From assembly GCA_022508425.1 (NCBI GenBank), contig JAFLVF010000012.1, positions 1-34,757 of the forward strand: 34,757 bases of DNA, written 5' to 3'. The notes beneath the pieces were generated by a model that had not been told where the DNA came from, did no database searches, and worked only from the letters and a program-made list of their open reading frames with translations. Source of the DNA: Clostridiales bacterium. Its GTDB lineage: Bacteria > Bacillota > Clostridia > Christensenellales > Pumilibacteraceae. Below, piece by piece: positions 6,277 to 21,218 of this stretch (position 1 is its first letter; each line of letters starts with the position of its first letter). The position numbers were made by a program, and so were the translations under genes.

Positions 6277-7464
6277 ATGAAGGTTTATGCGGACAATGCG
6301 GCGACGCGAAAGATGCGCCCCGCCGCAATCGATACAATGTTAAAGACGACGGAGGAGTATTACGGAAATCCGTCGTCGCTGCACAGTATGGGACAGCGCG
6401 CGAAAGAGGTGCTCGAGGACGCGCGTCAGAGCATAGCGAATCTTTTGGGCGCTAATGCAAACGAGATTTATTTTACTTCCGGCGGAAGCGAGGCAGACAA
6501 CCAAGCTATTTATTCGGCAGTGCACGCGCCCAAGAATAAGGGCAAAAAGCACATCGTTTCGACTGCATTCGAGCACCATGCCGTACTGCACCCGCTCGAA
6601 AAGCTTGAGAAAGAGGGATATGAAATTACTCTCCTCGACGTAGGGGAAAAGGGGTTGGTCACGGCCGAGCAGGTTGCTAAGGCCATTCGTCCCGATACCT
6701 GTCTTGTAACAGTAATGTACGCCAACAACGAGATAGGCACTATTCAGCCGATTGCGGAGATAGGCGAGGTTTGCCGCGAAAAGGGCGTGCTCTTCCACAC
6801 CGACGCTGTGCAGGCGGTTGGTCACCTTCCCATAGATTTGTCCAAGATGAAGGTCGACTATCTGTCGTTGTCGGCGCATAAGTTCGGCGGACCGCGCGGG
6901 ATAGGCGCTCTGTACGCTAGACGCGGCGCTTACGTCGCAACATTCGTGGAGGGCGGGGCGCAGGAGCGCAACAAGCGCGCCGGCACCGAAAACCTGCCGG
7001 CAATCGCAGCCATGGCGGTCGCACTCGACGAGGCGGTCAAAAACATGAAGTCGGCTAATACTAAAATTTCCGCCATGCGCGACAGGCTGATTGACGGTTT
7101 GAAGAAAATACCGCACTGCGCGCTAAACGGCGATCAAACAAAACGCTTGAGCGGCAACGTCAGCTTTTGCTTCGAGGGCATAGAGGGCGAGTCGCTCCTG
7201 TTATGGCTTGACGAGGCGGGGATATGCGCGTCGTCGGGGTCGGCTTGCACGTCGGGCTCACTCGATCCGAGTCACGTTCTGCTCGCTATAGGCAGAGTGC
7301 ACGACGTGGCGCACGGCTCGCTCCGTCTCACTCTCTCCGAGGACAACACCGACGAAGAAGTAGACTATATGCTCGAAAAAATCCCCGAAGTCGTCGCGTA
7401 TCTTCGCGGCATATCTCCGGTTTGGCGCGATTTGGTTAACGGTAAACGTCAATATATTCTCTGA
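6277..7464 (+). CDS. Cysteine desulfurase (NifS/IscS family)
   Basis: 395 residues, the normal length for the family. This PLP enzyme takes sulfur from cysteine, giving alanine and a persulfide for iron-sulfur clusters or thiolated tRNA. The PLP lysine is K202 in SAHKFGG, and the persulfide cysteine is C324 in the short-loop motif SSGSACTSGSLDPSH, as in group I NifS/IscS. The N-terminal YADNAATRK and the TDAVQ motif also fit. GGTAGGA precedes the ATG by five bases. The IscU scaffold gene follows 181 bp later, with element copy A between them; the stop codon TGA lies inside that element's left end. Confidence 0.95.
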   Translation: MKVYADNAATRKMRPAAIDTMLKTTEEYYGNPSSLHSMGQRAKEVLEDARQSIANLLGANANEIYFTSGGSEADNQAIYSAVHAPKNKGKKHIVSTAFEHHAVLHPLEKLEKEGYEITLLDVGEKGLVTAEQVAKAIRPDTCLVTVMYANNEIGTIQPIAEIGEVCREKGVLFHTDAVQAVGHLPIDLSKMKVDYLSLSAHKFGGPRGIGALYARRGAYVATFVEGGAQERNKRAGTENLPAIAAMAVALDEAVKNMKSANTKISAMRDRLIDGLKKIPHCALNGDQTKRLSGNVSFCFEGIEGESLLLWLDEAGICASSGSACTSGSLDPSHVLLAIGRVHDVAHGSLRLTLSEDNTDEEVDYMLEKIPEVVAYLRGISPVWRDLVNGKRQYIL

Positions 7465-7585
7465 CGTCTTATGCATCGGACGTAGACGAACTACGTGCTT
7501 GCGGCGGCTCAGTCATTTAGGAGGGTCTAAACTCCTTCGCCGCCGCTGCGCCGGTTGTCCGCCTACGCCGCGCCTAAGCCGTCAG
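7461..7585 (+). repeat. Structured intergenic element, copy A
   Basis: A 125-bp element with ends CTGACG and CGTCAG; the outer 14 bases pair with two mismatches. Its left end contains the stop codon of the desulfurase gene (TGA 7462-7464). Inside are a hairpin (7480-7485/7491-7496), a GC stem (7501-7508/7539-7546) and the conserved core TCATTTAGG...TCTAAACTCC. TTAGG at 7517-7521 can pair with CCTAA at 7573-7577. Related copies are at 11787 and 21073. Function is unknown; it lies inside an apparent operon and has no U-tract, so it is not a simple terminator. Confidence 0.75.
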
Positions 7586-7645
7586 TTCCGGCAAATGAAG
7601 TGTCGGGCACTTTCAAAAAAGTTTTTAAGGAGGTCATGGTTAATT

Positions 7646-8089
7646 ATGGCTTTGTACAGCGAAAAGGTTATGGACCATTTCAAGAATCCGCGCAACGTCG
7701 GCATAATAGAGGACGCCGACGGCGTGGGCGAGGTGGGTAACGCCAAGTGCGGCGATATAATGAAAATCTATCTGCGCATACGCAACGATATAATCGAGGA
7801 CGTCAAGTTCGAGACTTTCGGTTGCGCTAGCGCAATTGCGAGCAGTTCGATGGCTACCGAGCTCATAAAGGGCAAGCCCATTTCCCAAGCGTTGGAGCTT
7901 ACCAACAAGGCTGTCGCCGAAGCGCTCGACGGGTTGCCTGCGTACAAACTGCACTGCTCGGTGCTCGCCGAGGAAGCGATTAAAAACGCCATCGTCGACT
8001 ATTATGAGAAAAACGGCATAGAGTACGACAAGGCAAAGTATGCGCCCGGCAATTGCCCTCATTGCCACGATGACGGTGAGGGCGCTTGA
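7646..8089 (+). CDS. Iron-sulfur cluster scaffold protein, IscU/NifU N-terminal type
   Basis: 147 residues. The three cluster-ligand cysteines are C35 (NAKCGD, with D37), C60 (FGCASA) and C104 (HCS), so clusters can be built here from sulfur delivered by the desulfurase encoded upstream. The LPPVK Hsc66-recognition motif of true IscU is absent, as in NifU-like scaffolds of Firmicutes. The tail ends in CPHCHDD (C137, C140), an extra metal-binding-like pair. The start is the ATG at 7646: AAGGAGG at 7627-7633 is twelve bases before it. An ATG at 7636 is out of frame and almost touches the ribosome binding site. A longer upstream reading would run through the repeat element and is rejected. Confidence 0.92.
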   Translation: MALYSEKVMDHFKNPRNVGIIEDADGVGEVGNAKCGDIMKIYLRIRNDIIEDVKFETFGCASAIASSSMATELIKGKPISQALELTNKAVAEALDGLPAYKLHCSVLAEEAIKNAIVDYYEKNGIEYDKAKYAPGNCPHCHDDGEGA

Positions 8090-8106
8090 CGGTATAATTT
8101 GTAAAT

Positions 8107-8144
8107 AAAAAGCCGACGGGGTTTTCACGCTCTGTCGGCTTTTT
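8107..8144. terminator. Bidirectional intrinsic terminator
   Basis: AAAAAGCCGAC (8107-8117) pairs with GTCGGCTTTTT (8134-8144). It lies between the converging scaffold gene and aldehyde dehydrogenase gene and can end both transcripts. Confidence 0.88.
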
Positions 8145-8156
8145 GTATGTGCAAAA

Positions 8157-9533
8157 TTATTTTAGGAAGAACTTGATGAGATTGTCGTTGCTCTTCTTGT
8201 ACGGCTGGTATCGCATGGGAAGGTCGATAAAATTCTTCTTGTCGACTATGCTCTTGTAGTGTGTAAACGTTTCGAAGCCCACCTTGCCGTGATATGCGCC
8301 CATGCCGCTAGCGCCGAATCCGCCGAACGGTACATGCGGATTGGCGAGGTGTATTACGACGTCGTTTACGCAACCTCCGCCGAAGCCGAGATTGCGCGTA
8401 ATGCGCTTGATAAACTTTCTATCCGTCGAGAATACGTACAGCGCGAGCGGACTGTCGTGCGACGATACGTACGAAACTATCTCGCGTTCGTCTGTATACG
8501 TGACGATGGGTAGTACCGGACCGAAAATTTCTTCGCCCATGACGGCATCGTCAAAAGTGACGTTGTCGAGGACGGTGGGCTCGATCTTGAGTGTGTCGAC
8601 ATTTGACTTGCCGCCGCAGACGATTTTGTTCTCGTCGATTAACCCTTTTATTCGCTCGAAATGCTTAGCATTGACAATCTTGCCGTAGGCGGAGTTGTCG
8701 AGCGGGGAAGACCCGAACTGTTTTTGTATCTGCGTTTTGAGTTCTTCGATCAGCTTGCCCTTAACGCTTTCATCGCAAAAAACATAGTCGGGAGCTACGC
8801 ACGTCTGACCGCAGTTTAGGTATTTTCCCCAAACGATGCGTTTGGCGGCGAGCTTAACGTTTGCAGATTTATCGACTATGCAAGGGCTCTTGCCGCCCAG
8901 CTCGAGAGTGACGGGCGTGAGGTTTTCGGCGGCCTTGCCGTAAACGAATTTGCCTATATTCTTACTGCCCGTGAAGAACACGTAGTCGTATTTTTCTTGC
9001 CACAGCGCTTCGTTATATTCCTTGCCGTAGACGGCGGCAACGTATTCGCGCGGGAATACGTCATCTATGATTTTCTTGATAACCTCGCTCGTGTTGGGCG
9101 CCGACGAACTTGTTTTGAGAACGACGGTGTTGCCCGCGGCCAATGCGTCGACGAGCGGGCCCATTGCGAGCAGGAAAGGATAGTTCCACGGGCTAAGCAC
9201 CAAAACCGTGCCGTACGGCGAGGGCAGACGGTAGCTCTTGGACGCAAAATGCACGAGCGGCGTTTTTGCGCGCTTTGCTTTGGAAAATTTCTTTACGTGC
9301 TTTAGCATGAACGATATTTCGCTCATTACAAGCCCCGTTTCGCACATGTAGCTTTCGCTAGCGCTCTTGCCGAGGTCGGCGTGAAGTGCATTGTGGATGT
9401 CATCGAGGTTAGCCTTGATAGCGTTGTACAGCGATGAGAGATATTTCTTTCTGAACTTGACGTCGAGCGTCTTACCGACGGCGAAGAACGCCTTTTGCTC
9501 AGTGACTATTTGAGTAAGTTGATTTTCAGACAT
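8157..9533 (-). CDS. NAD(P)-dependent aldehyde dehydrogenase (class 3-like)
   Basis: 458 residues, the size of class 3/fatty aldehyde dehydrogenases rather than the roughly 490 of most ALDHs. It oxidises aldehydes to acids. Visible are the cofactor segment FTGS (187-190), the general base E211 in ELGGK, and the catalytic C245 in NCGQTCVAPDY. The C-terminal PFGGFGASGMGAYHG is typical of the class. AGGAG lies six bases before the ATG at 9533. It is the last gene of a three-gene operon: the alcohol dehydrogenase ends one base upstream. Together they could turn an alcohol into an acid, or act in reverse for aldehyde removal. The true substrate is not visible. Confidence 0.92.
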   Translation of the reverse strand: MSENQLTQIVTEQKAFFAVGKTLDVKFRKKYLSSLYNAIKANLDDIHNALHADLGKSASESYMCETGLVMSEISFMLKHVKKFSKAKRAKTPLVHFASKSYRLPSPYGTVLVLSPWNYPFLLAMGPLVDALAAGNTVVLKTSSSAPNTSEVIKKIIDDVFPREYVAAVYGKEYNEALWQEKYDYVFFTGSKNIGKFVYGKAAENLTPVTLELGGKSPCIVDKSANVKLAAKRIVWGKYLNCGQTCVAPDYVFCDESVKGKLIEELKTQIQKQFGSSPLDNSAYGKIVNAKHFERIKGLIDENKIVCGGKSNVDTLKIEPTVLDNVTFDDAVMGEEIFGPVLPIVTYTDEREIVSYVSSHDSPLALYVFSTDRKFIKRITRNLGFGGGCVNDVVIHLANPHVPFGGFGASGMGAYHGKVGFETFTHYKSIVDKKNFIDLPMRYQPYKKSNDNLIKFFLK

Positions 9534-9534
9534 T

Positions 9535-10731
9535 TTAAGCTCCTATTTTTTCGTACATTTTAGCGAGTTTCTTTTTGTCCCACAGTACGGGAACGGGGTA
9601 TAAGGGATTTGCTTCCTTGTCCGCGTAGGCTGAGAGGGCGGGTATGTCCTCTTGTTTGATTTCGTCTATATGCGAGGGTATGCCGAACTTGTCGTTTAGC
9701 CGTTCGATTTCGGCTATTATGCGCTCGGCGGCGACGTCTGCCGGCGTGTCCTTGTCCGCAAGAGAGCAAAATACTGCGATTTTCTTTAATTTCTTGTGCG
9801 CGTGCTTTCCGTACTCGCTCAAGACAATGGGGAGTATGACTGCGTTGGCAAGCCCGTGCGCGACGTTGTATTTACCGCCGAGCGCGTGCGCCAAGGCGTG
9901 CACATAGCCGACGTAGCTCTTGGAAAAGGCGCGCCCCGCAAGGTGCGACGCCATAAGCATGTTCTTTGCCGCGTCGCGGTCACGATAGGTGTAAAACTTT
10001 TCAAGATTTTCGAAGATCAGCTTGATAGCGTTTAGCGCGTCGGCGCGCGTTGACTTGTTGCCCGATTTACCTATATACGCTTCGACAGCGTGCGTGAGAG
10101 CGTCCATGCCCGTGGTGGACGCCACATGCGGAGGGAGAGAAAGTATCATTTCCTCGTCTAGCACGGCGTACTTGGGTATGAGCGGGAAATCGTTGATAGC
10201 ATACTTGTGCCGCGTAACCGAATCCACTATGACGCAGGCGAGCGTCGTTTCGCTGCCTGTGCCGGCCGTCGTCGGCACGGCTATGAGAAGGGGGATCTTC
10301 TTGCGGACCTTGAGTATTCCGCGCAATTTACCGAGAGTCTTTTTCGGCCGCGCGACGAGTGCACCGACGCCTTTTGCACAGTCTATGGGCGAGCCGCCGC
10401 CAAAGGCTATGATGCTGTCGCAACCTTCGTTTTTGTATATCTCTAACGCTTCCGACACGTTGTCCGTCGTCGGGTTGGCAACGACGTTGTCATATACGGC
10501 GTAGCTCATTCCTTTTTCTTTCAGCGCGTCTTCCGCTTTTTGAGTAAGGCCGAGAGAGCGCACGGTCTTGTCGGTGACTATGAGCGGTCTTGTTTTCCCG
10601 CAGGAAGCGAGAGTAGCCGCGACGTCCTCGGTCTTGTCGATTATCTGGGGGTCTTTGTAGGGGAGAATGGGCAGCGCGCACTTGAAAACCAATTGAAAAG
10701 CGCGGCAGTACAGTTTTTTGAAAATGTTCAT
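9535..10731 (-). CDS. Iron-containing alcohol dehydrogenase
   Basis: 398 residues, group III (Fe-ADH) family. It has the nucleotide-binding GGGSPID (111-117), the PTTAGTGSE motif, and the four metal ligands D210, H214, H278 and H292 in the usual spacing. The enzyme interconverts alcohols and aldehydes with NAD(P)H. AAGGA precedes the ATG by about seven bases. The neighbours are a MarR regulator 17 bp upstream and an aldehyde dehydrogenase one base downstream, so the product aldehyde is probably passed on. Butanol, ethanol or 1,2-diol metabolism are possible. Confidence 0.93.
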   Translation of the reverse strand: MNIFKKLYCRAFQLVFKCALPILPYKDPQIIDKTEDVAATLASCGKTRPLIVTDKTVRSLGLTQKAEDALKEKGMSYAVYDNVVANPTTDNVSEALEIYKNEGCDSIIAFGGGSPIDCAKGVGALVARPKKTLGKLRGILKVRKKIPLLIAVPTTAGTGSETTLACVIVDSVTRHKYAINDFPLIPKYAVLDEEMILSLPPHVASTTGMDALTHAVEAYIGKSGNKSTRADALNAIKLIFENLEKFYTYRDRDAAKNMLMASHLAGRAFSKSYVGYVHALAHALGGKYNVAHGLANAVILPIVLSEYGKHAHKKLKKIAVFCSLADKDTPADVAAERIIAEIERLNDKFGIPSHIDEIKQEDIPALSAYADKEANPLYPVPVLWDKKKLAKMYEKIGA

Positions 10732-10748
10732 AGTTGTTTCCTTGCAGA

Positions 10749-11192
10749 TTATTTGGCCGATATTTGTTTGTAGTAGTTGGTCAGGTTGTCGGCAATGGCG
10801 TGGAGCGATTGGTAAAATTGTACGCGCTCCTCGTCTGACAACACGGCGCTGCCGGCATTGACCGCCTTTTCGGATTTGTCGGTGATAAAGTCGGCGACCT
10901 TCTTGCCTTCGTCGGTAAGGCGAATAACGGCATTGTACGTGTTGAGATCGTACGATACGTACCCTTTGCTCCTCAGCAACGACAACCCGCGCGATATTGC
11001 CGCTTTGTCCTCGAACGTCAGCTTGATAAGCTCAGTCGCCCGAAGCCCTTGCGGATTCTCGTTAAGATAGTAAATACACATGACGTGTATGGCCTTAAGC
11101 CCGTAGCTCTTCATCTCGTGTACCTTTATCCTATTGACGAGCTTGTTCAGTTTCATTACTGTAATCGTGAAATTTTCGAATACCTTTTCCAT
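10749..11192 (-). CDS. MarR-family transcriptional regulator
   Basis: 147 residues with the MarR winged-helix layout: helices for dimerisation at both ends, a helix-turn-helix around 53-74 (ATELIKLTFEDKAAISRGLSLL) and a wing to about 92. It heads the operon with the alcohol and aldehyde dehydrogenases and very likely represses it, with release by an alcohol, aldehyde or related ligand. Two identical inverted repeats sit on its own promoter. I chose the ATG at 11192, with AAAGG five bases upstream. The same frame opens with a TTG at 11225, but that codon lies inside an operator at the transcription start and cannot be the start. Confidence 0.9.
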   Translation of the reverse strand: MEKVFENFTITVMKLNKLVNRIKVHEMKSYGLKAIHVMCIYYLNENPQGLRATELIKLTFEDKAAISRGLSLLRSKGYVSYDLNTYNAVIRLTDEGKKVADFITDKSEKAVNAGSAVLSDEERVQFYQSLHAIADNLTNYYKQISAK

Positions 11193-11212
11193 GATGACCT
11201 TTGCACCTCTTT

Positions 11213-11226
11213 GTTGATTTGTCAAC
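11213..11226. promoter_or_regulatory. MarR operator O2 at the transcription start
   Basis: GTTGA-TTTG-TCAAC, a perfect inverted repeat lying directly after the -10 box of the minus-strand promoter. The same arms recur at 11244-11257. Confidence 0.75.
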
Positions 11227-11227
11227 T

Positions 11228-11256
11228 ATTATACATAAAATTTGTTGAGTGGTCAA
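11228..11256 (-). promoter_or_regulatory. Promoter of the marR-adh-aldh operon
   Basis: On the minus strand, TTGACC (11251-11256), 17-bp spacer, TATAAT (11228-11233). The -35 box is inside operator O1 and the start site is at operator O2, so repression by exclusion of the polymerase is expected. Confidence 0.85.
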
Positions 11257-11257
11257 C
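11244..11257. promoter_or_regulatory. MarR operator O1 over the -35 box
   Basis: GTTGA-GTGG-TCAAC has the same arms as O2 but a different centre. The 31-bp centre-to-centre distance is about three helical turns, placing both sites on one face of the DNA. Confidence 0.75.
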
Positions 11258-11348
11258 TAAATATAGGGGCAAAATCGGAATGTGACCGAATTTTTGCCGA
11301 GCGCCGCAGTGCCTATACAAATTTTTTTCGGTTTTTTCCGTAAAACGC

Positions 11349-11378
11349 TTGACAATGTGGTGTTATACGGCATATACT
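11349..11378 (+). promoter_or_regulatory. Promoter of the metal-resistance operon
   Basis: TTGACA (11349-11354), 18-bp spacer, TATACT (11373-11378). The start site would fall at the edge of the palindrome 11383-11406. Confidence 0.8.
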
Positions 11379-11382
11379 GTTA

Positions 11383-11406
11383 TTGAACAATTGAATAATT
11401 GTTCAA
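11383..11406. promoter_or_regulatory. ArsR/SmtB-type operator
   Basis: TTGAACAATT, four bases, AATTGTTCAA: a perfect 10-4-10 palindrome. The TGAACA/TGTTCA arms are typical of SmtB/CadC/CzrA operators. It covers the transcription start of the adjacent arsR-family gene, fitting metal-released autorepression. Confidence 0.85.
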
Positions 11407-11436
11407 CTGTAATAATTTTCGAGTGCGGAGGTCGGT

Positions 11437-11790
11437 ATGGAAGAGCCTATGCTTGAAGAAATAGGCGAGCACGGCGAAACCGTAAATAAGGTTAAGGCGG
11501 GAATGCCCGACGAGGATATGTTGGTCGATATAGCCGAATTGTTCAAGGTGTTCGGCGACTCGACTCGCACCAAGATATTGGCGGCGCTGTCCGTATCGGA
11601 GTGCTGTGTGTGCTGTCTGTCGTCGGTGCTGAACATGAGCGTGTCGGCGGTGTCGCACCAGCTCCGCATCCTGCGACAGTCCAAGCTCGTCAAGACGAGG
11701 CGAGAGGGCAAAGAGATATATTACGCTCTCGACGACGAGCATATAGGCGAGATATTTACTACCGCGCTTGAGCACGTAAAAGAACTCTGA
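11437..11790 (+). CDS. ArsR/SmtB-family metal-sensing repressor (CadC/CzrA-like)
   Basis: 117 residues, typical for the family. The winged-helix core carries ECCVCC (C56, C57, C59, C60) in the place of the CadC/ArsR ELCVCDL sequence, a soft-metal site for Cd, Pb or As. The last helix shows D100-x-H102, then H113 and E116, close to the zinc site of SmtB/CzrA. So it may carry both site types. It should leave the operator at 11383-11406 when metal binds, switching on the HMA protein and P1B ATPase encoded downstream. GGAGG is five bases before the ATG. The TGA stop codon is part of element copy B. Cd/Zn/Pb sensing is inferred; the family call is secure. Confidence 0.93.
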   Translation: MEEPMLEEIGEHGETVNKVKAGMPDEDMLVDIAELFKVFGDSTRTKILAALSVSECCVCCLSSVLNMSVSAVSHQLRILRQSKLVKTRREGKEIYYALDDEHIGEIFTTALEHVKEL

Positions 11791-11909
11791 CGGCGTATCC
11801 ATCGCGCGATAGTTCGTCGGCCTTCGCGCCGCCCTCGGTCATTTAGGTCAGACTAAATTCCCGTCGGTCGGCGCTTAGGTGTCTGCTCACCGCGCGCCTA
11901 ACCCGTCGG
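11787..11909 (+). repeat. Structured intergenic element, copy B
   Basis: A 123-bp copy of the family at 7461 and 21073. It begins CTGACGGC, containing the arsR stop codon, and ends CCCGTCGG. Inside are a small hairpin palindrome (11801-11810), a GC stem GCGCCG/CGGCGC (11826-11831/11869-11874) and the core GGTCATTTAGG...GACTAAATTCCC. TTAGG (11843-11847) can pair with CCTAA (11897-11901). It separates the sensor gene from the HMA gene. Confidence 0.75.
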
Positions 11910-11959
11910 AAAAACTTTTAATATTCTATTAGGTGTTTTAATACTGCAAGGGGATAAAC

Positions 11960-12184
11960 ATGAAAAAGACTATCAAGGTAAACAATCTGGACTGCGCCAA
12001 CTGCGCCGCAAAAGCGGAAAAGGCAATAGGCAAGCTTGACGGCGTTAACAGCGCGTCGGTCAACTTTCTCATGCAGAAGATTACGCTCGACGTTGACGAT
12101 AATAAAGTCGACGACGTTTTGAATGCGGTCAAAAAGACGTGCAAAAAAGTCGTGCCCGAGATGGACATAGTTAAGGTGATATGA
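11960..12184 (+). CDS. Free-standing HMA-domain heavy-metal-binding protein
   Basis: 74 residues forming a single heavy-metal-associated (ferredoxin-like) domain with the ligand motif DCANC (C12, C15). Such domains carry Cd, Zn, Pb or Cu(I) and usually form the N-terminus of the matching P-type ATPase. Here the ATPase encoded next lacks that domain, so this protein probably replaces it as a separate metal donor. AAGGGG stands shortly before the ATG. Its TGA overlaps the ATPase ATG (ATGA), so synthesis should be coupled. Confidence 0.92.
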   Translation: MKKTIKVNNLDCANCAAKAEKAIGKLDGVNSASVNFLMQKITLDVDDNKVDDVLNAVKKTCKKVVPEMDIVKVI

Positions 12185-14070
12185 GTAAATTACAAAAAAA
12201 CACCGTACGCATATCGGTTTCGCTCGCTTGTTTTTTTGTTGCGTTCATTTGCTTCAAACTGCTTGGAGGGCGTGCGCCGTTTTGGGCGTGGCTCATAGTT
12301 TTCCTATCCGTCTATATAGCGGCGGGCTACGACGTATTTGTTCGCGCCGTCAGGAATATCGCTCACGGCCGAGTGTTTGACGAGCACTTTCTGATGATAG
12401 TGGCGACAATAGGCGCGTTTGTTCTCGGCGAGTATGCGGAAGCTGTCGCCGTCATGCTGTTCTATCAGGTGGGCGAGCTATTCCAAAGCTATGCAGTCGG
12501 TAAGTCGCGTCGGTCGATTGCCGCGCTTATGAATATTTGCCCGGAGAGTGCGTGTGTCGTCACCGACGGCGGCGAGGAAATTGTTTCGCCCGACGAGGTG
12601 GAAGTGGGTAGCTTAATAGTCGTTAGGGCCGGAGAGAAGGTGCCCATCGACGGCATAATCGAAAGCGGATCGGGATATCTCGACTGTTCGGCGTTGACCG
12701 GAGAGAGCGAGCCCGTCGCCGTAGCGGCAGGCGACGAAGCGCTGTCGGGCGCAATAAGTACGTCGTCCGTTCTCAACGTACGCACGACTAAGCCGTACGC
12801 CGATTCGACGGTGGCTAAGATACTCGACCTCGTCGAGAACGCGTCGTCAAAAAAAGCAAAGACCGAAAACTTTATCACGCGTTTTGCATTAATCTATACG
12901 CCGGCGGTGGTGTTTTCCGCGCTCATCCTCGCCATACTTCCGCCGCTGATAATCGGATACAACGCGGGCAGTGTGTGGCGCGAGTGGGTGACGCGCGCGC
13001 TTACTTTCCTCGTGGTGTCTTGCCCGTGCGCGCTTGTGATTTCAGTACCGATGTCGTTCTTCGGCGGAATAGGAGCGGCGTCGCGGCGCGGAATATTGGT
13101 CAAGGGCGGCAACTATCTCGAGCTTTTGGGCAAGACCGATACCATTGTATTCGACAAGACGGGCACGATAACGGAAGGGAAATTCGCCGTAGTCAATGTG
13201 TTCGGCGACAGACGCGAGGTGCTGACAGTCGCGGCGAAGGCCGAGTGCGGGTCGCTGCATCCGATAGCGCAATCGATTACAAGTGCGGCAAGAGAGCAAT
13301 TCGGCTTCCAATCCGACCGTTGCGATACGACCGAGCTTGCGGGAATGGGGATAGTCGCGAAAACGGACAATGGCCAGGTGCTGTGCGGAAACCGCGCGCT
13401 CATGGAAAAATACGGCGTAGACGTAATAGACGCGGTGCCTGTAGGTACCGTCGTGTACGTGGCCGTCGACGGCAAATGTATAGGCGCAATCGATATTGCC
13501 GACCGTGTTAAACCGGACTCGACGGAAGCAATCGCTTCGCTCAAAGCGGACGGGATAAAGACGGTCATGCTTACCGGCGACAGGGCGGAGACCGCAGACA
13601 GGATAGCGCGCGAAGTGGGAATAGACTCTTCCCGCGCACAACTGTTGCCTGCCGACAAAGTAACGTGTATAGAGAACATTATCGAAGAGCACGGCGGCAA
13701 GGGCAAAGTCGCATTCGTCGGCGACGGCATCAACGACGCGCCCGTGCTGTCGAGAAGCGACGTAGGCATCGCCATGGGCGCGCTCGGCAGTGACGCGGCA
13801 ATCGAGGCGGCGGACATAGTGCTGATGAACGACAAGCTGTCCCAGATAGTCACAGCAAGGCGAATAGCGAAAAAGACTGTGCGCATCGCGCTTCAAAACA
13901 TAATTTTCGCGCTGTCGGTAAAGGCCGTTATCCTCGTGCTTGCGGCGTGCGGAATAGCTTCGATGTGGCTTGCCGTATTCGGCGACGTCGGCGTTGCGGT
14001 AATCGCCATATTGAACGCCATGCGGTGTTTGAGAGTAGGTAAGCGGCAATCTCGCAGTTCTCTTGACTAA
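12181..14070 (+). CDS. P1B-type heavy-metal-translocating ATPase (CadA/ZntA-like)
   Basis: 629 residues. All core motifs are present: TGES (173-176, actuator), membrane CPC (281-283, metal selectivity for Cd/Zn/Pb or Cu), DKTGT with the phosphorylated D325, the HP pair (360-361), and GDGINDAP (514-521). The protein starts directly with membrane helices and has no N-terminal HMA domain, which is encoded by the overlapping gene upstream. With a CadC/SmtB-like repressor in the same operon, export of Cd, Zn or Pb from the cytoplasm is most likely. Copper is less likely given the regulator. No terminator follows; the next gene has its own promoter overlapping this gene's end. Confidence 0.94.
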   Translation: MSKLQKNTVRISVSLACFFVAFICFKLLGGRAPFWAWLIVFLSVYIAAGYDVFVRAVRNIAHGRVFDEHFLMIVATIGAFVLGEYAEAVAVMLFYQVGELFQSYAVGKSRRSIAALMNICPESACVVTDGGEEIVSPDEVEVGSLIVVRAGEKVPIDGIIESGSGYLDCSALTGESEPVAVAAGDEALSGAISTSSVLNVRTTKPYADSTVAKILDLVENASSKKAKTENFITRFALIYTPAVVFSALILAILPPLIIGYNAGSVWREWVTRALTFLVVSCPCALVISVPMSFFGGIGAASRRGILVKGGNYLELLGKTDTIVFDKTGTITEGKFAVVNVFGDRREVLTVAAKAECGSLHPIAQSITSAAREQFGFQSDRCDTTELAGMGIVAKTDNGQVLCGNRALMEKYGVDVIDAVPVGTVVYVAVDGKCIGAIDIADRVKPDSTEAIASLKADGIKTVMLTGDRAETADRIAREVGIDSSRAQLLPADKVTCIENIIEEHGGKGKVAFVGDGINDAPVLSRSDVGIAMGALGSDAAIEAADIVLMNDKLSQIVTARRIAKKTVRIALQNIIFALSVKAVILVLAACGIASMWLAVFGDVGVAVIAILNAMRCLRVGKRQSRSSLD

Positions 14071-14091: not shown

Positions 14092-14094
14092 AAA
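14079..14094. promoter_or_regulatory. 16-bp palindrome over the -10 box
   Basis: TTTATTGTACAATAAA is a perfect palindrome centred in the promoter. A wider inverted repeat, ACGTTTATT (14072-14080) with AATAAACGT (14089-14097), encloses it. It may be an operator for an unknown repressor, or a hairpin. Confidence 0.5.
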
Positions 14095-14097
14095 CGT

Positions 14098-15132: not shown

Positions 15133-15133
15133 T

Positions 15134-15943
15134 ATGAAAACATTGTATATTACCGATCTCGACGGCACGATTTTGACCAAAGAACAGACCGTGACCGAAT
15201 ATTCCAAGCGAGTGTTCAACGCCCTCTACGAGCGCGGGACGCTTGTTACTTACGCGACCGCGCGCAGTCTCGAGACGGCGACTGTCGTCACACAGGGCGT
15301 AAAGTTCGGCGCGCCGCGCGTCGTGTATAACGGCGCGTTCGTGTTCGGCACCGACGACAAGCCGTTTATATCGCATACATTCGAGGGCGCGGCGCACGGC
15401 GTGATCGACACGCTTTTGTCGGGCGGACTTCCGCCCATTGTGTATTCGCTCACAAACGGTGCGGAAAAGTTTTCGTTCGTGCCGAAGCTGTTAAGTAAGG
15501 GCGGCAGAATGTTTATCGACACGCGGCTGAACTCGGTGCGCATCAATCCCGTTGATTCTACCGACGCGCTGTACAAAGGCGATATATTCTATCTGCTCTG
15601 CATAGACGATAAGGCTAAGCTCTTGCCGTACTACGATATGTATAAAGACGAGTTTCATTGCGTGCTGTCCGTCGAACCGTACACACACAACGATTGGCTG
15701 GAAATCATGCCGCGAGCGGCGACGAAAGCAAATGCGATAAGAGAGCTGAAAGCTAAGCTGAACTGCCGATTGGTGGCGTTCGGCGACGGGAAGAACGATA
15801 TCGACATGTTCCTCGCCGCCGACGAGTGCTACGCCGTGGAAAACGCCGTGCCCGAGCTGAAAGAGATAGCAACCGCCGTCATCGGCAAGAACACCGACGA
15901 CGCCGTCGCCAAATGGCTGGAGAAGAATGAGCCACTAAAGTGA
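15134..15943 (+). CDS. HAD-superfamily phosphatase (Cof/YidA-like)
   Basis: 269 residues, a normal length for Cof-type (IIB cap) HAD hydrolases. The nucleophile motif DLDGT gives D8 and D10. Threonine/serine motif II lies near TARS, and the C-terminal GDGKNDIDM supplies the metal-binding acids. Members dephosphorylate sugar phosphates, FMN or PLP; the substrate cannot be told. The ATG at 15134 is one base after the stop codon of the phosphoesterase-HD gene, with only a weak GGGG before it, so translation is probably coupled. The two proteins may act on the same metabolite. Confidence 0.88.
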   Translation: MKTLYITDLDGTILTKEQTVTEYSKRVFNALYERGTLVTYATARSLETATVVTQGVKFGAPRVVYNGAFVFGTDDKPFISHTFEGAAHGVIDTLLSGGLPPIVYSLTNGAEKFSFVPKLLSKGGRMFIDTRLNSVRINPVDSTDALYKGDIFYLLCIDDKAKLLPYYDMYKDEFHCVLSVEPYTHNDWLEIMPRAATKANAIRELKAKLNCRLVAFGDGKNDIDMFLAADECYAVENAVPELKEIATAVIGKNTDDAVAKWLEKNEPLK

Positions 15944-16155
15944 TTAAGATAAAATATAAGAATTAGGGAGCGCCTGCAACGCTATTTAATTTATATGCGG
16001 GCGCACTTGCGTCCCGGATTCTTCGCTTTTGCTCGGAATGACACCATTAAACCAACCGTGTCATTCTGAGGCCAACGGCCGAAGAATCTAGGCGGCTTTG
16101 CCGCCGCACGCTCGCCGTAAGGCGAATTTCGTTGTATCACCGATGTGACAAAAAA
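15944..16155. other. Gene-free stretch with repeats
   Basis: Nothing coding is supported. It starts with an AT-rich module (15944-15962, matching 21238-21256 with one mismatch) and contains palindromic repeat R1 copy 1 (15995-16108). Confidence 0.6.
15995..16108. repeat. Palindromic intergenic repeat R1, copy 1
   Basis: A 114-bp unit matching 31981-32094 in length and layout. It starts ATGCGGGCGCACTTGCG, has nested inverted repeats GATTCTTC/GAAGAATC and AATGACAC/GTGTCATT, and ends in a GGCGGC/GCCGCC hairpin. The TGTCATTCTGAG...GAAGAAT core is a type of intergenic palindrome I recall from many bacterial genomes. Confidence 0.88.
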
Positions 16156-16188
16156 ATTCCCGACCGTAAAAGCTTATCGGTCGGGAAT
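16156..16188 (-). terminator. Minus-strand intrinsic terminator, distal
   Basis: ATTCCCGACCG (16156-16166) pairs with 16178-16188, and a run of T follows on the minus strand. It is the third terminator after the flotillin gene, over 300 bp away, so it may end a separate small transcript. Confidence 0.65.
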
Positions 16189-16451
16189 AAATATAGTAAA
16201 GCTGTTGAATTTTCCTAATTAGTCCGGTAAAATATTTGACTCGGAAACATTCGGTTGCCTTACATATTATATAGTGTGCCGATTGTCGGCCGATTATTCG
16301 CAACTATCCAAAATAATCGTAATTTTTTTCAAAAAAACTTCCGATCGGCACTAACCTTTCGGAAGTAATTTCGTAAAGCTTTATTTCTTCGGCGTATAAG
16401 AAATTTTCTTTACAACTGTATTATGTGTAGTGTAAATACTTTTATGCACGA
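16189..16451. other. Gene-free stretch between tandem minus-strand terminators
   Basis: No plausible coding frame. A TATAAT-like box on the minus strand near 16264-16275 could serve a short RNA ending at 16156, but a good -35 box is not seen. The minus-strand sequence before the middle and distal hairpins shares AGCTTTAC, hinting at a duplicated unit. Confidence 0.4.
16337..16366 (-). terminator. Minus-strand intrinsic terminator, middle
   Basis: ACTTCCGA (16337-16344) pairs with TCGGAAGT (16359-16366), followed by seven T on the minus strand. It lies between the other two minus-strand terminators. Confidence 0.65.
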
Positions 16452-16483
16452 AAAAATCCCGAGCGTTTACGCGCGGGATTTTT
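16452..16483 (-). terminator. Terminator of the flotillin operon
   Basis: CGGGATTTTT (16474-16483) pairs with AAAAATCCCG (16452-16461), and the inner GCGT/ACGC extends the stem. It stands 14 bp after the flotillin stop codon. Confidence 0.88.
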
Positions 16484-16496
16484 GATGGATTATTGA

Positions 16497-17939
16497 TTAC
16501 GCTTTCTTAGCCGGCTTTTTTGCCGCGTCTGCCGCCTCGGTCGGGGCAGGGGGCGCGCTGTCGTCCACCTTGCCGAGATATTGGGGAAGCTCCATGCCGT
16601 TCATCTTGAACAACTCGTTGAGCGGCGGCACCGCGCCGAGCATGCCGGACAGGAAGTTTGCCGTCGTCGGCTTGCCGTTTTGCATGCTGTCCCAAACGGT
16701 GACCTTGTCGATCTTGAGGTTTTTTATCGCCTCGACCTGCATCGATACGAGGTCTGTCATCTTGTCGGCAATCAGCATCTTGACAGCGTCGTCGCTCTTG
16801 CCGCCCGCCGCCGCTATTATCTTGCCGAAGCCTTCCGCTTGCTTGGACAGTATTTCCAGCTGACCTTTAGCTTCCGCCACGCGCATTGCGTACGCCGCGT
16901 CCGCTTCGCCTTGCGCTTTCCTTCTGATGCGCTCGGCTTCCGCTTCCGCTTCGATTTCGGCTTTCTGCTTTTGAATCTCGGCGTTGACGAGTACGTCCGC
17001 TTCGAGCGTTGCGCGCTCGCGCTTTGCGCGCATGATTTCCGCTTGCTGTTCGGCCTTGTACGCTTCCTCGTTGGCGCGCGCTTCGGCGATGAACTCCGCC
17101 GATTGTGCGGCGCGGTTTGCGTCCGCTTCCGCCTCGCGCAGTTTCGCGTTGGATTGGCTGATCAGTATCTTGGACGCGTTCTCTCCCTCGATTGCCTTGG
17201 AATTGGCATTGGCGACCTTGATGCGCATTTCGGTGTTGGCGGTCGCTTCGCCGATCGAACCCTCGCGGTCTTTCTCGGCAACCGATATCTTCGCGTCGTT
17301 GCGCGCCTTTGCCGCCGCCTCTTTGCCGAGCGCTTCGATATAGCCCGACTCGTCGTTGATATCCGTAACGTTGACGTTTATAAGACGAAGACCGATCTTT
17401 TTGAGCTCGCCCTCGACGTTGAGCGATACGGCGTCGAGGAATTTGTCGCGGTTGGTGTTGATTTCCTCGATGTCCATCGTAGCGATAATCAAGCGCAACT
17501 GACCGAATATGATATCTTCGGCGAGGCGCTGTATCTCATTGATGGGCAGACTCCTAAGCCGTTCCGCGGCGTTTTGCATGACGCCGGGCTCTGTCGAGAT
17601 AGCGACGGTGAAGCGCGACGGCACGTCTATACGAATGTTTTGGCGCGAGAGCGCGTTCTTCAAGTCGATCTGGATGGAAATGGGCGCCAGGTCGAGAAAG
17701 CTGTAGCCCTGTATGAACGGAATGATAAACGCCGCGCCGCCGTGTATACATTTTGCGGATCTGGTAGTGCCGTCCGAGGACTTGCCGACTCGACCGTAAA
17801 TGACCATGACTTTGTCCGACGGGCATTTCTTGTACCTGGTTGCGAGTATCACGACGAGCATGATCAAAAGTATGACGCCCGCAATGACCCCGCCGACAAT
17901 GCCGCCGACTGCGCCGCTTGATAGAGATAGTACTGACAT
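16497..17939 (-). CDS. Flotillin-family (SPFH) membrane-scaffold protein
   Basis: 480 residues, like Bacillus FloT/YuaG. A single N-terminal membrane helix (about 10-34) is followed by the SPFH/band 7 domain (about 38-205). A long Ala/Glu-rich coiled coil (about 210-370) carries many EAE and KAE repeats, and the tail is Pro/Ala/Lys-rich. Flotillins gather into membrane microdomains that organise kinases, transporters and secretion. AAGGAGG stands eight bases before the ATG at 17939. The NfeD gene lies upstream on the same strand, 199 bp away, the classic partner arrangement. A terminator follows closely. Confidence 0.94.
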   Translation of the reverse strand: MSVLSLSSGAVGGIVGGVIAGVILLIMLVVILATRYKKCPSDKVMVIYGRVGKSSDGTTRSAKCIHGGAAFIIPFIQGYSFLDLAPISIQIDLKNALSRQNIRIDVPSRFTVAISTEPGVMQNAAERLRSLPINEIQRLAEDIIFGQLRLIIATMDIEEINTNRDKFLDAVSLNVEGELKKIGLRLINVNVTDINDESGYIEALGKEAAAKARNDAKISVAEKDREGSIGEATANTEMRIKVANANSKAIEGENASKILISQSNAKLREAEADANRAAQSAEFIAEARANEEAYKAEQQAEIMRAKRERATLEADVLVNAEIQKQKAEIEAEAEAERIRRKAQGEADAAYAMRVAEAKGQLEILSKQAEGFGKIIAAAGGKSDDAVKMLIADKMTDLVSMQVEAIKNLKIDKVTVWDSMQNGKPTTANFLSGMLGAVPPLNELFKMNGMELPQYLGKVDDSAPPAPTEAADAAKKPAKKA

Positions 17940-18138
17940 GTTCTTGCCTCCTTAATAGAGCTCTTATACAAGTTTGTGCACCAATCTTGCTGTAAATTTC
18001 AGCGCTATGTTCGTCTACGTGTCGCGGACGTACCGCTACGAGTACGACCACGTTACGTATCCTGCCTATCGCAGAAATTTTCTTTCGCTACTTGGCGCGT
18101 CGCTTGTGACGAGTCTCTTAATATACTTTTTAATATTC

Positions 18139-18873
18139 TCACTCTTCCGTGATTGTAATATTCGGTTTTTTGAGTCGCTCCACGAGCAGGATGTTGCCGC
18201 CGACATGGGCTTTTATCTTTATTTCGGCGCCCGTGGGGATTGCTTCGTCGCAGTCCGTGATAGCTTCGTATTCGGCGTACCGTTCTTGCACGAGAACGTT
18301 GACCTTGCCTTTGCCGGAGCGCGAGGGCGGGATAGTGAGGTAAACCGATCCGGCTTTACCCACGGCGTTGCCGGGATTGATGTTGCCGCTCGACTGTAGT
18401 TTCTCCATGCCGACGAGCGCGCCCGCCATACCGCACGACGCCGCAAACCCGAACGCCACGGCAATCAGTACCGCGAAGTACCAGTCGACGAAGAATGCGA
18501 ACGTGTAGCACATCCAGCTCCCTATGGCGAGAAAGGCGAGTATGGATCGCAGCGAAATCAATTTCAGTCCGAAGGGCAGTATCGAAGAGTACGATTGTTG
18601 CGGAACGTCCGCACCGTCAACGTCGAAGTCTCCGCCTATGTCGGAAATACCTCCGTCGCCCGGCAGACCGCCGATATCGCTCGCGCCGCCTACGTCGCCG
18701 TCCAAACTTATGTCACCCGACGTATCGACGGTTGCGTCCGAGAAATCGCCGTCGGAGCCGCTGTCGACATTGCCTATCAGCATGAGAATTATCTGTACAA
18801 CCAAGATTGCGGTCACGGCGCACGCCATGACGAAAGTCACTTGCTGTAATACCGACAACGAGTTCCACCACAT
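18139..18873 (-). CDS. NfeD/YuaF-like membrane protein
   Basis: 244 residues with one N-terminal helix (about 9-33), two more (about 107-129 and 131-155) and a C-terminal OB-fold-like domain (about 165-244), the layout of the short NfeD/YuaF proteins paired with flotillins. Between the first two helices is an unusually Asp/Gly-rich stretch (about 36-90, nearly all D, G, S, I and V), which could bind calcium or just be a flexible loop. GGAGGTG lies about eight bases before the ATG. A perfect promoter is at 18902-18930. It probably supports assembly of the flotillin encoded downstream. Confidence 0.88.
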   Translation of the reverse strand: MWWNSLSVLQQVTFVMACAVTAILVVQIILMLIGNVDSGSDGDFSDATVDTSGDISLDGDVGGASDIGGLPGDGGISDIGGDFDVDGADVPQQSYSSILPFGLKLISLRSILAFLAIGSWMCYTFAFFVDWYFAVLIAVAFGFAASCGMAGALVGMEKLQSSGNINPGNAVGKAGSVYLTIPPSRSGKGKVNVLVQERYAEYEAITDCDEAIPTGAEIKIKAHVGGNILLVERLKKPNITITEE

Positions 18874-18901
18874 AGTACCACACCTCCGTTAGTATGTCTA
18901 A

Positions 18902-18930
18902 ATTATACACCAATCGGATGACGTTGTCAA
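18902..18930 (-). promoter_or_regulatory. Promoter of the NfeD-flotillin operon
   Basis: Minus strand TTGACA (18925-18930), 17-bp spacer, TATAAT (18902-18907), a perfect consensus promoter. Confidence 0.9.
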
Positions 18931-19013
18931 TATCGGGAATGCCTCCGCCGCCCGATTTAATGTGATTTTAATTTTCCTAATGAGTTTTTAATTTTCGTCC
19001 CGATTTGGTCGGT

Positions 19014-19042
19014 TTGACAGAAACATGTATGTTTGGTATAAT
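19014..19042 (+). promoter_or_regulatory. Promoter of the DUF3810-like gene
   Basis: TTGACA (19014-19019), 17-bp spacer, TATAAT (19037-19042) preceded by TGG. It excludes the in-frame ATG at 19025, which lies in the spacer. Confidence 0.9.
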
Positions 19043-19084
19043 AATAATGTTGTGGAACAGGTGAGCAAGAAGAGTATATCGCGC

Positions 19085-20317
19085 ATGATAAAGCGCGGGC
19101 GGAAGTCCTCCGTCACGGTGAGATACGCACTGCCGCGAGTGTATTTCGTACTCGGCGCCGTCATTTGCGGCCTTGTCGCGACATTTCTCATGATGAACGT
19201 AATCCGCCAAAATCCCAAGACCGCAGAGTTTTGGACGGCGCACATCGAGCGCGGATACGAGCACGTAGTCGGCGTTCTTACGTCCTGGATACCGGTGTCC
19301 GTATTCGAGCTGTTCTTTTGCATAATGATAGGAAGCGGAATATTCCTGCTCGTAAGGCTGGTCGTCAATCTGTGCCGCGCGAACTTTACACGCATACTTT
19401 TGGGCGCGCTGTCACTCGGCACAGCCGCTATGTATATATTAAATATGTATATGCTGTCGATGGGCTTTGGGTATTTCCGCGCAGATATGCCGATAGCGCA
19501 GGCGGGCGCGGATTATGAGGCGGAGCGTGTGGCGACGGTTGCGCGGTATTTCCTCGACGATTACAACAATCTGTCGCGAACGCTCAAGCGCGACGGCAAC
19601 GGCGAGGTGGTTTTGCCTTACAGCTACCGCGAGCTGTCCAAAATAATGCAACAAGAATACGCCCGACTCGGCGGCGACTATTTCTTCTCATACACGCCAA
19701 AAGGCAAGCCCATAATAAACAGCTATGTTTTGTCCGCTTTGAGTATAACGGGCATAACATTCCTGCCCGTCGGCGAATCGACGATAAACATCGCCGCGCC
19801 CAAAACGTACGGCACGTTCACGCTCGCGCACGAGCTCGCGCACGCGAAAGGCGTTCAGCGCGAGGGCGACGCCAATTTGATAGCGCAGTACATCCTCGTT
19901 TCGTCGGACAACGACTATCTTCGTTACTGCGGATATTTTGCGTCCATGAACAACCTGTTGGCGGCGGTCGAGCTTGCCGGCGACGGTGACGAATACCGTC
20001 GGCTCGTAGCCGACATAGACGCGCTTGTGCGCGTGGAAAAGCGTTACGATTACGAGTACTGGACGGCACAGCCGGACATTGTGGGCGAGATAAGCGAGTT
20101 TTTCAATAATCTGTATCTGATGTTTAACGGCGCGGACAACGGCACGGGCAGTTACGACGACGGCGAGCAGATGGAGGTCATACCGCCGCCCGTCAACCCC
20201 GACACCGGCGAGGTTTTGCCCGACCCCGACACGGGCGAGCCGCAAAAGCCAAAGCCCGTGTACTCGGCGTTGCAGAAAATGTATTTCGCGGTGTACGAGA
20301 GTAAGTTCGGCGCCTAA
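19085..20317 (+). CDS. DUF3810-like membrane protein with zinc-protease motif
   Basis: 410 residues from the ATG at 19085. Three hydrophobic helices (about 15-38, 70-95 and 102-122) are followed by a large domain holding HELAH (249-253), the HExxH zinc-protease signature, with further acidic residues in the following EGDAN segment. This matches the DUF3810 family as I know it. A Pro/Asp/Gly-rich linker stands near the C-terminus. The start is uncertain: the ATG has only AAGAAGAG ten bases upstream, and a GTG at 19061 in the same frame also follows the promoter. It may be a membrane-bound peptidase; no substrate can be named. It diverges from the NfeD-flotillin operon. Confidence 0.78.
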   Translation: MIKRGRKSSVTVRYALPRVYFVLGAVICGLVATFLMMNVIRQNPKTAEFWTAHIERGYEHVVGVLTSWIPVSVFELFFCIMIGSGIFLLVRLVVNLCRANFTRILLGALSLGTAAMYILNMYMLSMGFGYFRADMPIAQAGADYEAERVATVARYFLDDYNNLSRTLKRDGNGEVVLPYSYRELSKIMQQEYARLGGDYFFSYTPKGKPIINSYVLSALSITGITFLPVGESTINIAAPKTYGTFTLAHELAHAKGVQREGDANLIAQYILVSSDNDYLRYCGYFASMNNLLAAVELAGDGDEYRRLVADIDALVRVEKRYDYEYWTAQPDIVGEISEFFNNLYLMFNGADNGTGSYDDGEQMEVIPPPVNPDTGEVLPDPDTGEPQKPKPVYSALQKMYFAVYESKFGA

Positions 20318-20419
20318 GCGTGCAAGGTCCGGCGGGCTGACATACTAATGCGACGCGCTCTCATTTGCGCTATAATCGCCGCTTTTTGTCGTTTATGGGC
20401 CGAAAATTTTGGAATATGC

Positions 20420-20448
20420 TTGCATTCGGCGAAACGGTGTAGTATAAT
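20420..20448 (+). promoter_or_regulatory. Promoter of the unknown gene at 20483
   Basis: TTGCAT (20420-20425), 17-bp spacer, TATAAT (20443-20448). Confidence 0.7.
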
Positions 20449-20482
20449 TTAACAGAATAAAAATTGTAAAGGACGAGATTTT

Positions 20483-21076
20483 ATGAATACCAAGACGGTC
20501 AAATTTTACGAGATAGTGAGCGAGTTTTTCGCGTCCGACATTCTCAAGAAAGCGGCGGTAGACAAGTATTTCGGCGCTATGCTCAAGCACGACTATTCCT
20601 CCGCAGAAGATCTTTGGGAATTTATGCTCATTCGTAACGACGCCGATCTCAAAAACTCGGCCGTCGCAGCGCTGTACGTCGACCGCGCATTCGAGCTGTT
20701 CTACGGTGCGGCCGAGCAACGTGCGCTCAAGACGGTCGTCGACCGTCCTGTCGTAATGCGCGCGGTGTTCTCCTTCTCGCCGTCGATTACAGACGGAGAG
20801 CTGTTCGCTTTGCCCGTCAATCTTCTCGTCTCGGGTAAGACGGACACTGTCGACGCAATATTCAAGCTGATAGCCAAGAACGAGGCCATGAAACCGTCGT
20901 TCGGGCAGTATATGATCAATTTCCTCGACCGCTTCTTTATCGAAATGATGAAAAAGAGCACTCAAAGAAAGGTCAAATTGAGCACCAAACAGTCGTCGCT
21001 ACTTCTTTCGACAGTGCAAAAAGTCAAAGGAGACGAGAAGGCTATGCTGGTGCAGAGGGTGAAAGAAGTCATCTGA
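20483..21076 (+). CDS. Protein of unknown function
   Basis: 197 residues that I do not recognise. It looks soluble and mostly helical, with no signal peptide and no membrane segment. The N-terminal part is rich in aromatic residues and the C-terminus in lysine. It has a clear promoter and AAAGGA nine bases before the ATG, so it is a real gene. Its TGA stop codon is contained in element copy C, and pyruvate kinase follows about 300 bp later. Confidence 0.75.
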   Translation: MNTKTVKFYEIVSEFFASDILKKAAVDKYFGAMLKHDYSSAEDLWEFMLIRNDADLKNSAVAALYVDRAFELFYGAAEQRALKTVVDRPVVMRAVFSFSPSITDGELFALPVNLLVSGKTDTVDAIFKLIAKNEAMKPSFGQYMINFLDRFFIEMMKKSTQRKVKLSTKQSSLLLSTVQKVKGDEKAMLVQRVKEVI

Positions 21077-21218
21077 CCCGTATTCATCGCGCGCTTGACG
21101 GCGAATGTATCGCGTGATACGGGCTACGTGCTCCTCGGCAGTCGGTCATGTAGGTTTGACTAAACTCCCGTCGCGCCTCGTCGCCTGTTGCCCGTCTGAC
21201 GCGTACCTACGCCGTCAG
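21073..21218 (+). repeat. Structured intergenic element, copy C
   Basis: A 146-bp, longer member of the family at 7461 and 11787. The left end CTGACC holds the stop codon of the preceding gene and the right end is GCCGTCAG. It contains hairpin GTATC/GATAC (21107-21111/21116-21120), stem ACGGGC/GCCCGT (21119-21124/21190-21195) and the core GGTCATGTAGG...GACTAAACTCCC. GTAGG (21150-21154) pairs with CCTAC (21206-21210), where the other copies have TTAGG and CCTAA. Its CTACGTGCT is shared with copy A. Confidence 0.75.

Follow-up and report, generated by a model that had tools for sequence, protein, structure and literature searches.

A dispersed palindromic repeat at the 3' ends of genes in Pumilibacteraceae and related Clostridia

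In a draft genome of a Clostridiales bacterium (Bacillota; Clostridia; Christensenellales; Pumilibacteraceae; GenBank assembly GCA_022508425.1), three unrelated genes, i.e., those for a cysteine desulfurase (iscS), an ArsR-family regulator (arsR) and a 197-aa protein, end within a repeated intergenic sequence, the left end of which holds their TGA stop codons. These genes are found in a stretch of 34,757 nucleotides (contig JAFLVF010000012.1, positions 1 to 34,757 of the forward strand), referred to below as the window. An earlier note, made from the letters of this stretch, described the repeat either as an element resembling a miniature inverted-repeat transposable element (MITE), which targets or brings stop codons, or as a conserved 3'-untranslated region (3'-UTR) or intercistronic RNA. 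The question raised by this locus is whether the element moves to the ends of genes or is retained there for a function in the transcript. Of these readings we lean, with some reserve, towards the former: the element is probably a non-autonomous mobile palindromic repeat of about 125 bases with a short 3' tail, found at gene 3' ends and similar in lifestyle to the repetitive extragenic palindromic (REP) and enterobacterial repetitive intergenic consensus (ERIC) sequences. The main rival is an RNA function for the host.

The three window copies belong to one dispersed repeat family. The genome is a 1.83 Mb draft, which is 94% complete with a contamination of 6.56%. With copy 1 as query, 24 places were found in this genome, including the query itself, down to E 6.8e-4, and a covariance model built from nine copies (referred to as R1) yielded, at E<=1, 76 rows that include an antisense self-hit of copy 1 and some partial or overlapping ones, i.e., about 75 places. 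Numerous copies lie at contig ends, as is usual for repeats in draft assemblies. Under a stricter filter, such that the counts are lower bounds, R1 matched at least 38 of the 74 genomes of the family, from 10 of 18 genera and including all 20 of the same genus, and at least 17 genomes in an even draw of 248 from the order, eight of these from five other families. The exact core pattern was found in 44 stretches of a species-genome collection, every one of them labelled as Clostridia, as Clostridiales or with the name of a genus belonging to these, among them Anaerocaecibacter muris, an isolate placed by NCBI in Pumilibacteraceae. Searches of two core patterns against viral contigs, and of one element each against phages and plasmids, gave no match to a carrier. 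The earlier note had staked its reading on a covariance-model search returning more copies, placed at stop codons and with conserved ends; such copies exist, and 81 of 122 full copies are at a stop codon.

This positional rule was examined after de-duplication with 74 copies from the genome itself, 43 from relatives (the best-scoring loci and 20 chosen from R1-positive genomes of the family) and 44 named copies defined by the exact core pattern, of which 122 were of full length with 200 bases on each side. A gene end on the same strand is located at most 400 bases upstream in 113 of the 122. Relative to the first base of the element, the stop codon starts at -10..+3 in 78 copies, at -15..+3 in 81 and at exactly +1 in 34. 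Among the remaining full copies, an open reading frame (ORF) runs into the element in five, six lie behind a presumed other copy (doubtful for L111) and 21 are found elsewhere; five of these 21 resemble gene ends missed by the ORF rules (C69_2746, C149_1037, L125_3322, L142_4238 and L132_3661) and are not counted among the 81. A terminator T-tract directly precedes six of the 122 copies, compared to 59 of 6986 random positions. One copy (L136) directly follows a tRNA-Leu (according to ARAGORN the tRNA ends at 2572, while the element starts at 2570). It is the sole confirmed case of three labelled by the script as tRNA neighbours; at L158 the tRNA is 177 bases distant and L157_436 is a gene end. 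In 4/122, a gene end on the opposite strand was called close to the right end (-18..+3). Twenty copies were picked in the order's other families; 19 of them are preceded by an ORF of 85 or more codons, with the stop codon at -6..+1 in 16 and at +3, +11 and +20 in the other three.

Two further observations concern gene ends. Two GyrB-like C-termini (named by eye; C3:336, L032, and C71:12828, L007) both precede an element and may reflect topoisomerase paralogues or contamination. Furthermore, an AT-rich repeat with units like GAATTCGGAATT is found behind stop codons that lack the hairpin at L195, L196, L260 and other loci.

Occupied and vacant orthologous sites, a comparison proposed in the earlier note, were read at the three window loci across the genus. 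At iscS (18 readable loci) a complete copy is present in the genome itself and in G010, with a remnant, identified by eye, in G009. At the gene for the 197-aa protein (20 loci) only the genome itself harbors a copy, possibly with a decayed left arm in G001 (by eye), and at arsR (19 loci) there is, in addition to the window copy, a decayed copy in G018. All five occupied sites (the three in the window, iscS in G010 and arsR in G018) use TGA, compared to seven of the 51 sites without a copy, where TAA (42) predominates over TAG (2); this is a hand count in which G009 was set aside. The chance of finding TGA in five of five sites is 2e-4, although the species are not independent. Within the genome, 16 copies belong to the +1 class, of which 15 use TGA and one TAA, as compared to TGA in 8 of the 23 window genes without an element.

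The protein ends did not follow this change. IscS ends in QYIL, where relatives mostly have PHLL or similar at the same length (only in G019 is the protein extended, by one residue, into iscU), the 197-aa protein ends in KEVI, compared to KEVL, KEIL, KEVM or KEVK, and ArsR ends in KEL in the genome itself, in G018 and in six vacant relatives, while more distant ones differ. Hence, the occupied window sites have TGA in place of the TAA that is commonest at vacant sites, i.e., a changed stop codon with an unchanged protein end relative to the closest relatives, and the notion that the element brings the stop codon is supported. At a PotD-like gene before mnmG (both named by eye), R1 confirmed a copy in 6/20 loci, and the close relatives G011 and G015 lack one; the protein end KTL is identical in all six occupied loci and in these two. 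The stop codon and its counterpart in the right arm are TGA/TCA in G013, G014 and G002, TAA/TTA in G003 and G009, and TAA/TCA, unpaired, in G010.

These data bear on a further alternative, i.e., that insertion is random and that purifying selection alone explains the placement, the built-in TGA making insertions at the last codon survivable. In its favour, coding is dense, and the element gives an early stop in two of three frames (at +1 and about +20). It predicts, however, many C-termini that are off by a few residues, whereas 34 copies at +1 were found against five ORFs running in, and at the PotD-like gene as well as at all three window loci the ends coincide with those of the closest relatives. 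It also leaves unexplained the copies that are flush with terminator T-tracts. We consider this explanation quite improbable; the placement would rather reflect an insertion preference for gene ends than tolerance alone.

The features of the window are listed in Table 1. The first two copies lie exactly where the earlier note had placed them, and the CTGAC at their left ends contains the TGA of the ORFs that end at 7464 and 11790. At the third locus the copy is real, while its extent required revision: the segment beginning at 21073 opens with a left-end fragment of another copy, and it is this fragment, rather than the complete hairpin, that carries the stop codon of the third gene within repeat sequence. 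Pfam agrees with the names cysteine desulfurase and ArsR regulator, and the 197-aa protein has no Pfam match at E<=0.001.

Table 1. Features of the window (positions of the 34,757-nucleotide stretch)
Feature	Positions	Strand	Remarks
tRNA, truncated by window start	1-56	+	Rfam match
Cysteine desulfurase (IscS/NifS-like)	6277..7464	+	PF00266 (Aminotran_5), E 2.1e-84; stop TGA 7462-7464 within copy 1
Copy 1, complete hairpin	7461..7585	+	Outer stem CTGACG/CGTCAG; conserved core 7512-7535; 123.2 bits (covariance model)
Copy 1 tail, CTTTCAA-AAAAGTTTTT-AAGGAGG-TCATGGTTAATT-ATG (ribosome binding site and start codon)	7610..7648	+	Layout as in tails of the TTGAAAGTAC subtype at other loci and in other species
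NifU_N (IscU-like) downstream gene	7646..8089	+	PF01592, E 1.2e-50
ArsR-family regulator	11437..11790	+	PF01022 (HTH_5); stop TGA 11788-11790 within copy 2
Copy 2, complete hairpin	11787..11909	+	Conserved core about 11838-11862; 86.5 bits (covariance model)
197-aa protein, unknown	20483..21076	+	Stop TGA 21074-21076 in left-end fragment
Left-end fragment of second copy (CTGACCCGTATTCATCGCGCG...), 22 bases, holds stop codon	21073..21094	+	Similar left-end fragments: C62, C73, C113
Copy 3, complete hairpin	21095..21218	+	117.1 bits (covariance model)

Each copy is predicted to fold into a single long imperfect hairpin of about 125 bases. Its internal loops are conserved, as is its core GGTCATKTAGG..CTAMACTCC, which the earlier note had recognized as shared among the copies. 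The motif ATnCATCG starts five to six bases after the TGA, not eight or nine as had been noted. The inverted-repeat ends are likewise real, but their letters are not fixed and vary in a complementary manner: the outer stem commonly opens N-T-R-A, CTGACGG..CCGTCAG is merely the commonest form in the genome itself, and the right end, CGTC in many of its copies, is CACTCAA, TACTTTCAA or CGTTAA in relatives. At C79:16896, C93:53, C138:45, C69:20172, C6:2876 and C71:10, and also at L170, part of the right arm is replaced by a variant middle, GCAGCCACAGGCTG...CAGCATTTGGCTGC, about 75-100 bases long. Several contigs terminate in this variant middle.

The pairing extends to the codons at the gene end. 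The stop codon is paired in the stem whether it is TAA, TAG or TGA. For the 35 copies that a looser flank rule assigns to the +1 class, the paired fraction is 0.89 at the final base of the last sense codon, 0.60 and 0.37 at the next positions outward and 0.11-0.51 beyond. At two QueA-like gene ends (named by eye; L108 and C114:9382, L067) the hairpin seems to pair the last codons, GGCGACGC with GCGTCGC. At rpsE, six of 18 readable loci hold a copy of this family (R1-confirmed, L289 only weakly at 20.8 bits), three hold a second hairpin family and nine hold neither, and the outer stems of the copies of this family are mostly different yet complementary. An outer stem formed as an inverted copy of the host flank was considered here (G010, G011); TAAAGCAAATTGCG is present in G010 without an element and may be a remnant. 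The second hairpin, unrelated and roughly 165 bases long with the core CGTAGCGCTGCTACGAC, was seen in 3/295 loci, i.e., L278 (G010), L283 (G017) and L293 (G002), at the rpsE stop, where it pairs the stop codon (TAGGATAC/GTATCCTA, TAAGCTAC/GTAGCTTA). In G019 (L286, 2227-2351, +) the copy is located at the end of the gene after rpsE, not of rpsE.

Stem conservation was assessed at 45 predicted pairs, using 77 copies of type A. Of the cells, 85.0% were Watson-Crick, whereas 200 shuffles averaged 63.1% and did not exceed 64.3%; with only the 29 variable pairs considered, the values were 80.0% and 48.1%. This shuffle leaves the relatedness of the copies in, and slid controls in the same test gave 23-31%. 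A selected sense RNA should favour G-U pairs. For the variable pairs of these copies, G.T and A.C cells numbered 124 to 101, while over the common pairs the ratio was 62 to 102 in type A and 71 to 52 in type B; a tRNA control gave 6 to 1, from seven tRNAs only and with a detector that favours pairs. The antisense strand gave the better fold in 37/51 copies. Because the G.T/A.C counts are inconsistent, the pairing does not indicate a sense RNA, and a palindrome at the DNA level fits equally well.

An alternative to mobility is a cis-acting intercistronic or 3'-UTR RNA under selection, in which the hairpin sequesters the stop codon and affects termination, ribosome release, coupling or mRNA decay, mobility being the mere means of spread. 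The co-directionality of the stop-codon copies with the upstream gene, the excess of Watson-Crick pairs over shuffled stems, the near-invariant internal loops and the pairing of all three stop codons, including TGA/TCA and TAA/TTA at one orthologous site, all speak for such an RNA, as do a subtype that ends in a conserved ribosome binding site and the hairpin of another family that pairs the rpsE stop codon in the same way. Against this stand the inconsistent G.T/A.C counts and the better antisense fold, the element being missing from most orthologous sites, and the copies behind terminators, which are probably little transcribed; one copy is even found behind a tRNA. Since the stems are without a clear G-U excess, they do not demonstrate an RNA function. 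The RNA alternative of the earlier note appears unlikely to us.

The interpretation of the element as a mobile palindrome rests on copies that are patchy, nested and mosaic. By eye, an inner element lies between the left and right ends of an outer copy at C90:1701 (L030, L039), C113:10322 (L053), C106:11288 (L042) and C62:3886 (L055). In all six comparable same-gene ortholog pairs (five elements of the genome itself) another copy of the same genome outscores the copy at the same gene elsewhere; the best match overall of the C113 copy is in another genome, and two further pairs gave no alignment. The tails are modular as well. The TTGAAAGTAC outer-stem subtype runs on into AAGGAGG and the start codon of the next gene, and GGAG..ATG follows within about 65 bases in 13 of the 19 copies that end in TTTCAA/T, compared to 17 of the 131 others. 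Some other copies of the genome itself have common CACAACTCTTT or CATAGTTCT tails. A scan for the tail motif, which was picked after the tails had been seen, found it in 22/150 copies compared to a background of 0.8%.

Several points weigh against a mobile palindrome. No mobilizing enzyme was found with the models searched, i.e., the Y1 transposase, RVT_1 and the integron integrase; the DDE and serine families were not searched. There is no convincing target duplication, as direct repeats 3-8 bases long are not in excess where the element meets its flanks (150 copies); in the same set, 2-base repeats one base inward numbered 12 compared to 8.1, and 4-base repeats inside the ends 11 compared to 1.9, the latter probably due to palindromic ends such as TTAA. 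Near-identical genomes, one with and one without the element at a given site, from which the exact insertion boundary could be read, were not found. The stop codon at the PotD-like gene is paired in five of six copies despite the TGA/TAA difference, which suggests retention under a pairing constraint. Finally, gene ends were taken from a script combining ORFs and codon scores, not from a gene finder, and the relatives were sampled from the top hits, not at random.

On the mobile-palindrome interpretation, a recombination or replication process would move the element to the 3' boundary of genes, oriented along transcription. Upon landing just before the old stop codon, the TGA/TAA of the outer stem would take over and leave the protein end unchanged; otherwise, the element would come to lie mostly a few bases beyond the stop. 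In transcripts, its hairpin would be situated immediately after the terminating ribosome. A more specific proposal, which we advance tentatively and hold to be doubtful, is that of a mobile DNA element which is directed, in the sense orientation, to gene 3' ends including stop codons, bringing a replacement stop and, in one subtype, a ribosome binding site. If true, it would represent a natural intercistronic cassette that enters operons with both proteins unaltered and is targeted via the ends of transcription or translation, not via a DNA motif.

In more general terms, several families within a single order of gut Clostridia have here a repeat that marks exact reading-frame ends. It makes testable why palindromic repeats such as REPs sit close behind stop codons, and whether gene ends rather than DNA sequence can steer a mobile element. 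As a mobile element, it would be a natural means of inserting into operons at gene junctions while leaving the genes intact; as an RNA device, it would be a regulator of wide occurrence, following iscS, rpsE and other housekeeping genes.

The absence of a named family in the earlier note agrees with comparisons to Rfam families, attC sites, REPs with their Y1 transposases (RAYTs) and retroelements, in none of which membership was found. In the window the only Rfam match is the truncated tRNA, and eight loci gave three weak matches at E<=1, none above the gathering score and none at the elements, so a known Rfam family was rejected. A literature search, which mostly did not extend to subscription journals, returned no title or opening of an abstract describing this repeat family. 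Of the features of MITEs, the element has terminal inverted repeats, many copies and no ORF, within the ORF list to which this check was limited; the listed ORF that overlaps copy 1 (7499-8089) results from an upstream extension of the IscU-like frame. Given the many dispersed copies, the vacant orthologous sites, the nesting and the presence of different copies at one gene in different species, the MITE-like reading of the earlier note is the better fit, while the element is not a classical MITE, being without a convincing target duplication or a linked transposase.

As candidate movers, the Y1 (HUH) transposase (PF01797) and reverse transcriptase (PF00078, RVT_1) were rejected, with no matches in the draft genome itself or in the copy-rich relatives G010, G011, G013, G014 and G015; across the family, these models matched in 31/74 and 16/74 genomes, respectively. 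Group IIC introns insert behind terminators. They also do so behind inverted repeats such as attC (PMC8876359). They differ from the present case in that the genome lacks a PF00078 match and no intron RNA family matches at the elements.

A recombination site of the integron type (attC) would likewise place a hairpin at the gene 3' end, with the bottom strand active. Sites of this type, imperfect palindromes found at the 3' ends of cassettes, form stem-loops in mRNA, and the cassette core can supply a stop codon (PMC8876359). The likeness is apparent: a hairpin at gene 3' ends, conserved in structure and variable in sequence, in the same orientation, with the stop in or near it and with the antisense strand folding better. 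The element is, however, dispersed rather than arranged in cassette arrays, and its copies adjoin housekeeping genes (most named by eye). The core boxes RYYYAAC and GTTRRRY were found in four and three copies, and both in only 2/150, on which ground membership was rejected. No integrase was found above the cut-off in 20 genomes; the 14 controls all gave hits below and none above this cut-off, i.e., there was no positive control. An attC site is thus a highly improbable identity.

ERIC sequences make a TA target duplication, while no duplication was found here. ERIC/RU-1 is described as a MITE-like repeat of 127 bp that can fuse to the 3' end of a gene (PMC2229807, PMC2759123). The present element is thereby set beside ERIC/IRU/RU-1 by description, not by sequence, as a MITE-like repeat of similar length at gene 3' ends, with the difference that the ERIC gene fusions reported there alter the protein end. 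REPs, for their part, occur in mosaic arrangements. They are 20-40 bp in length (PMC3733652), and some are found no more than 15 nt downstream of a stop codon, where they are said to lower translation (PMC12306157). Membership in the REPs was rejected on account of length, the lack of a general GTAG or CGTC tag and the lack of a Y1 transposase match in the draft genome. With the REPs and bacterial interspersed mosaic elements (BIMEs) of E. coli and others, the element shares its nature as a dispersed, mosaic, extragenic palindrome near stop codons; it differs from them in its 125 bp, its conserved core, its constant orientation at stops and a stop codon that often resides within the stem.

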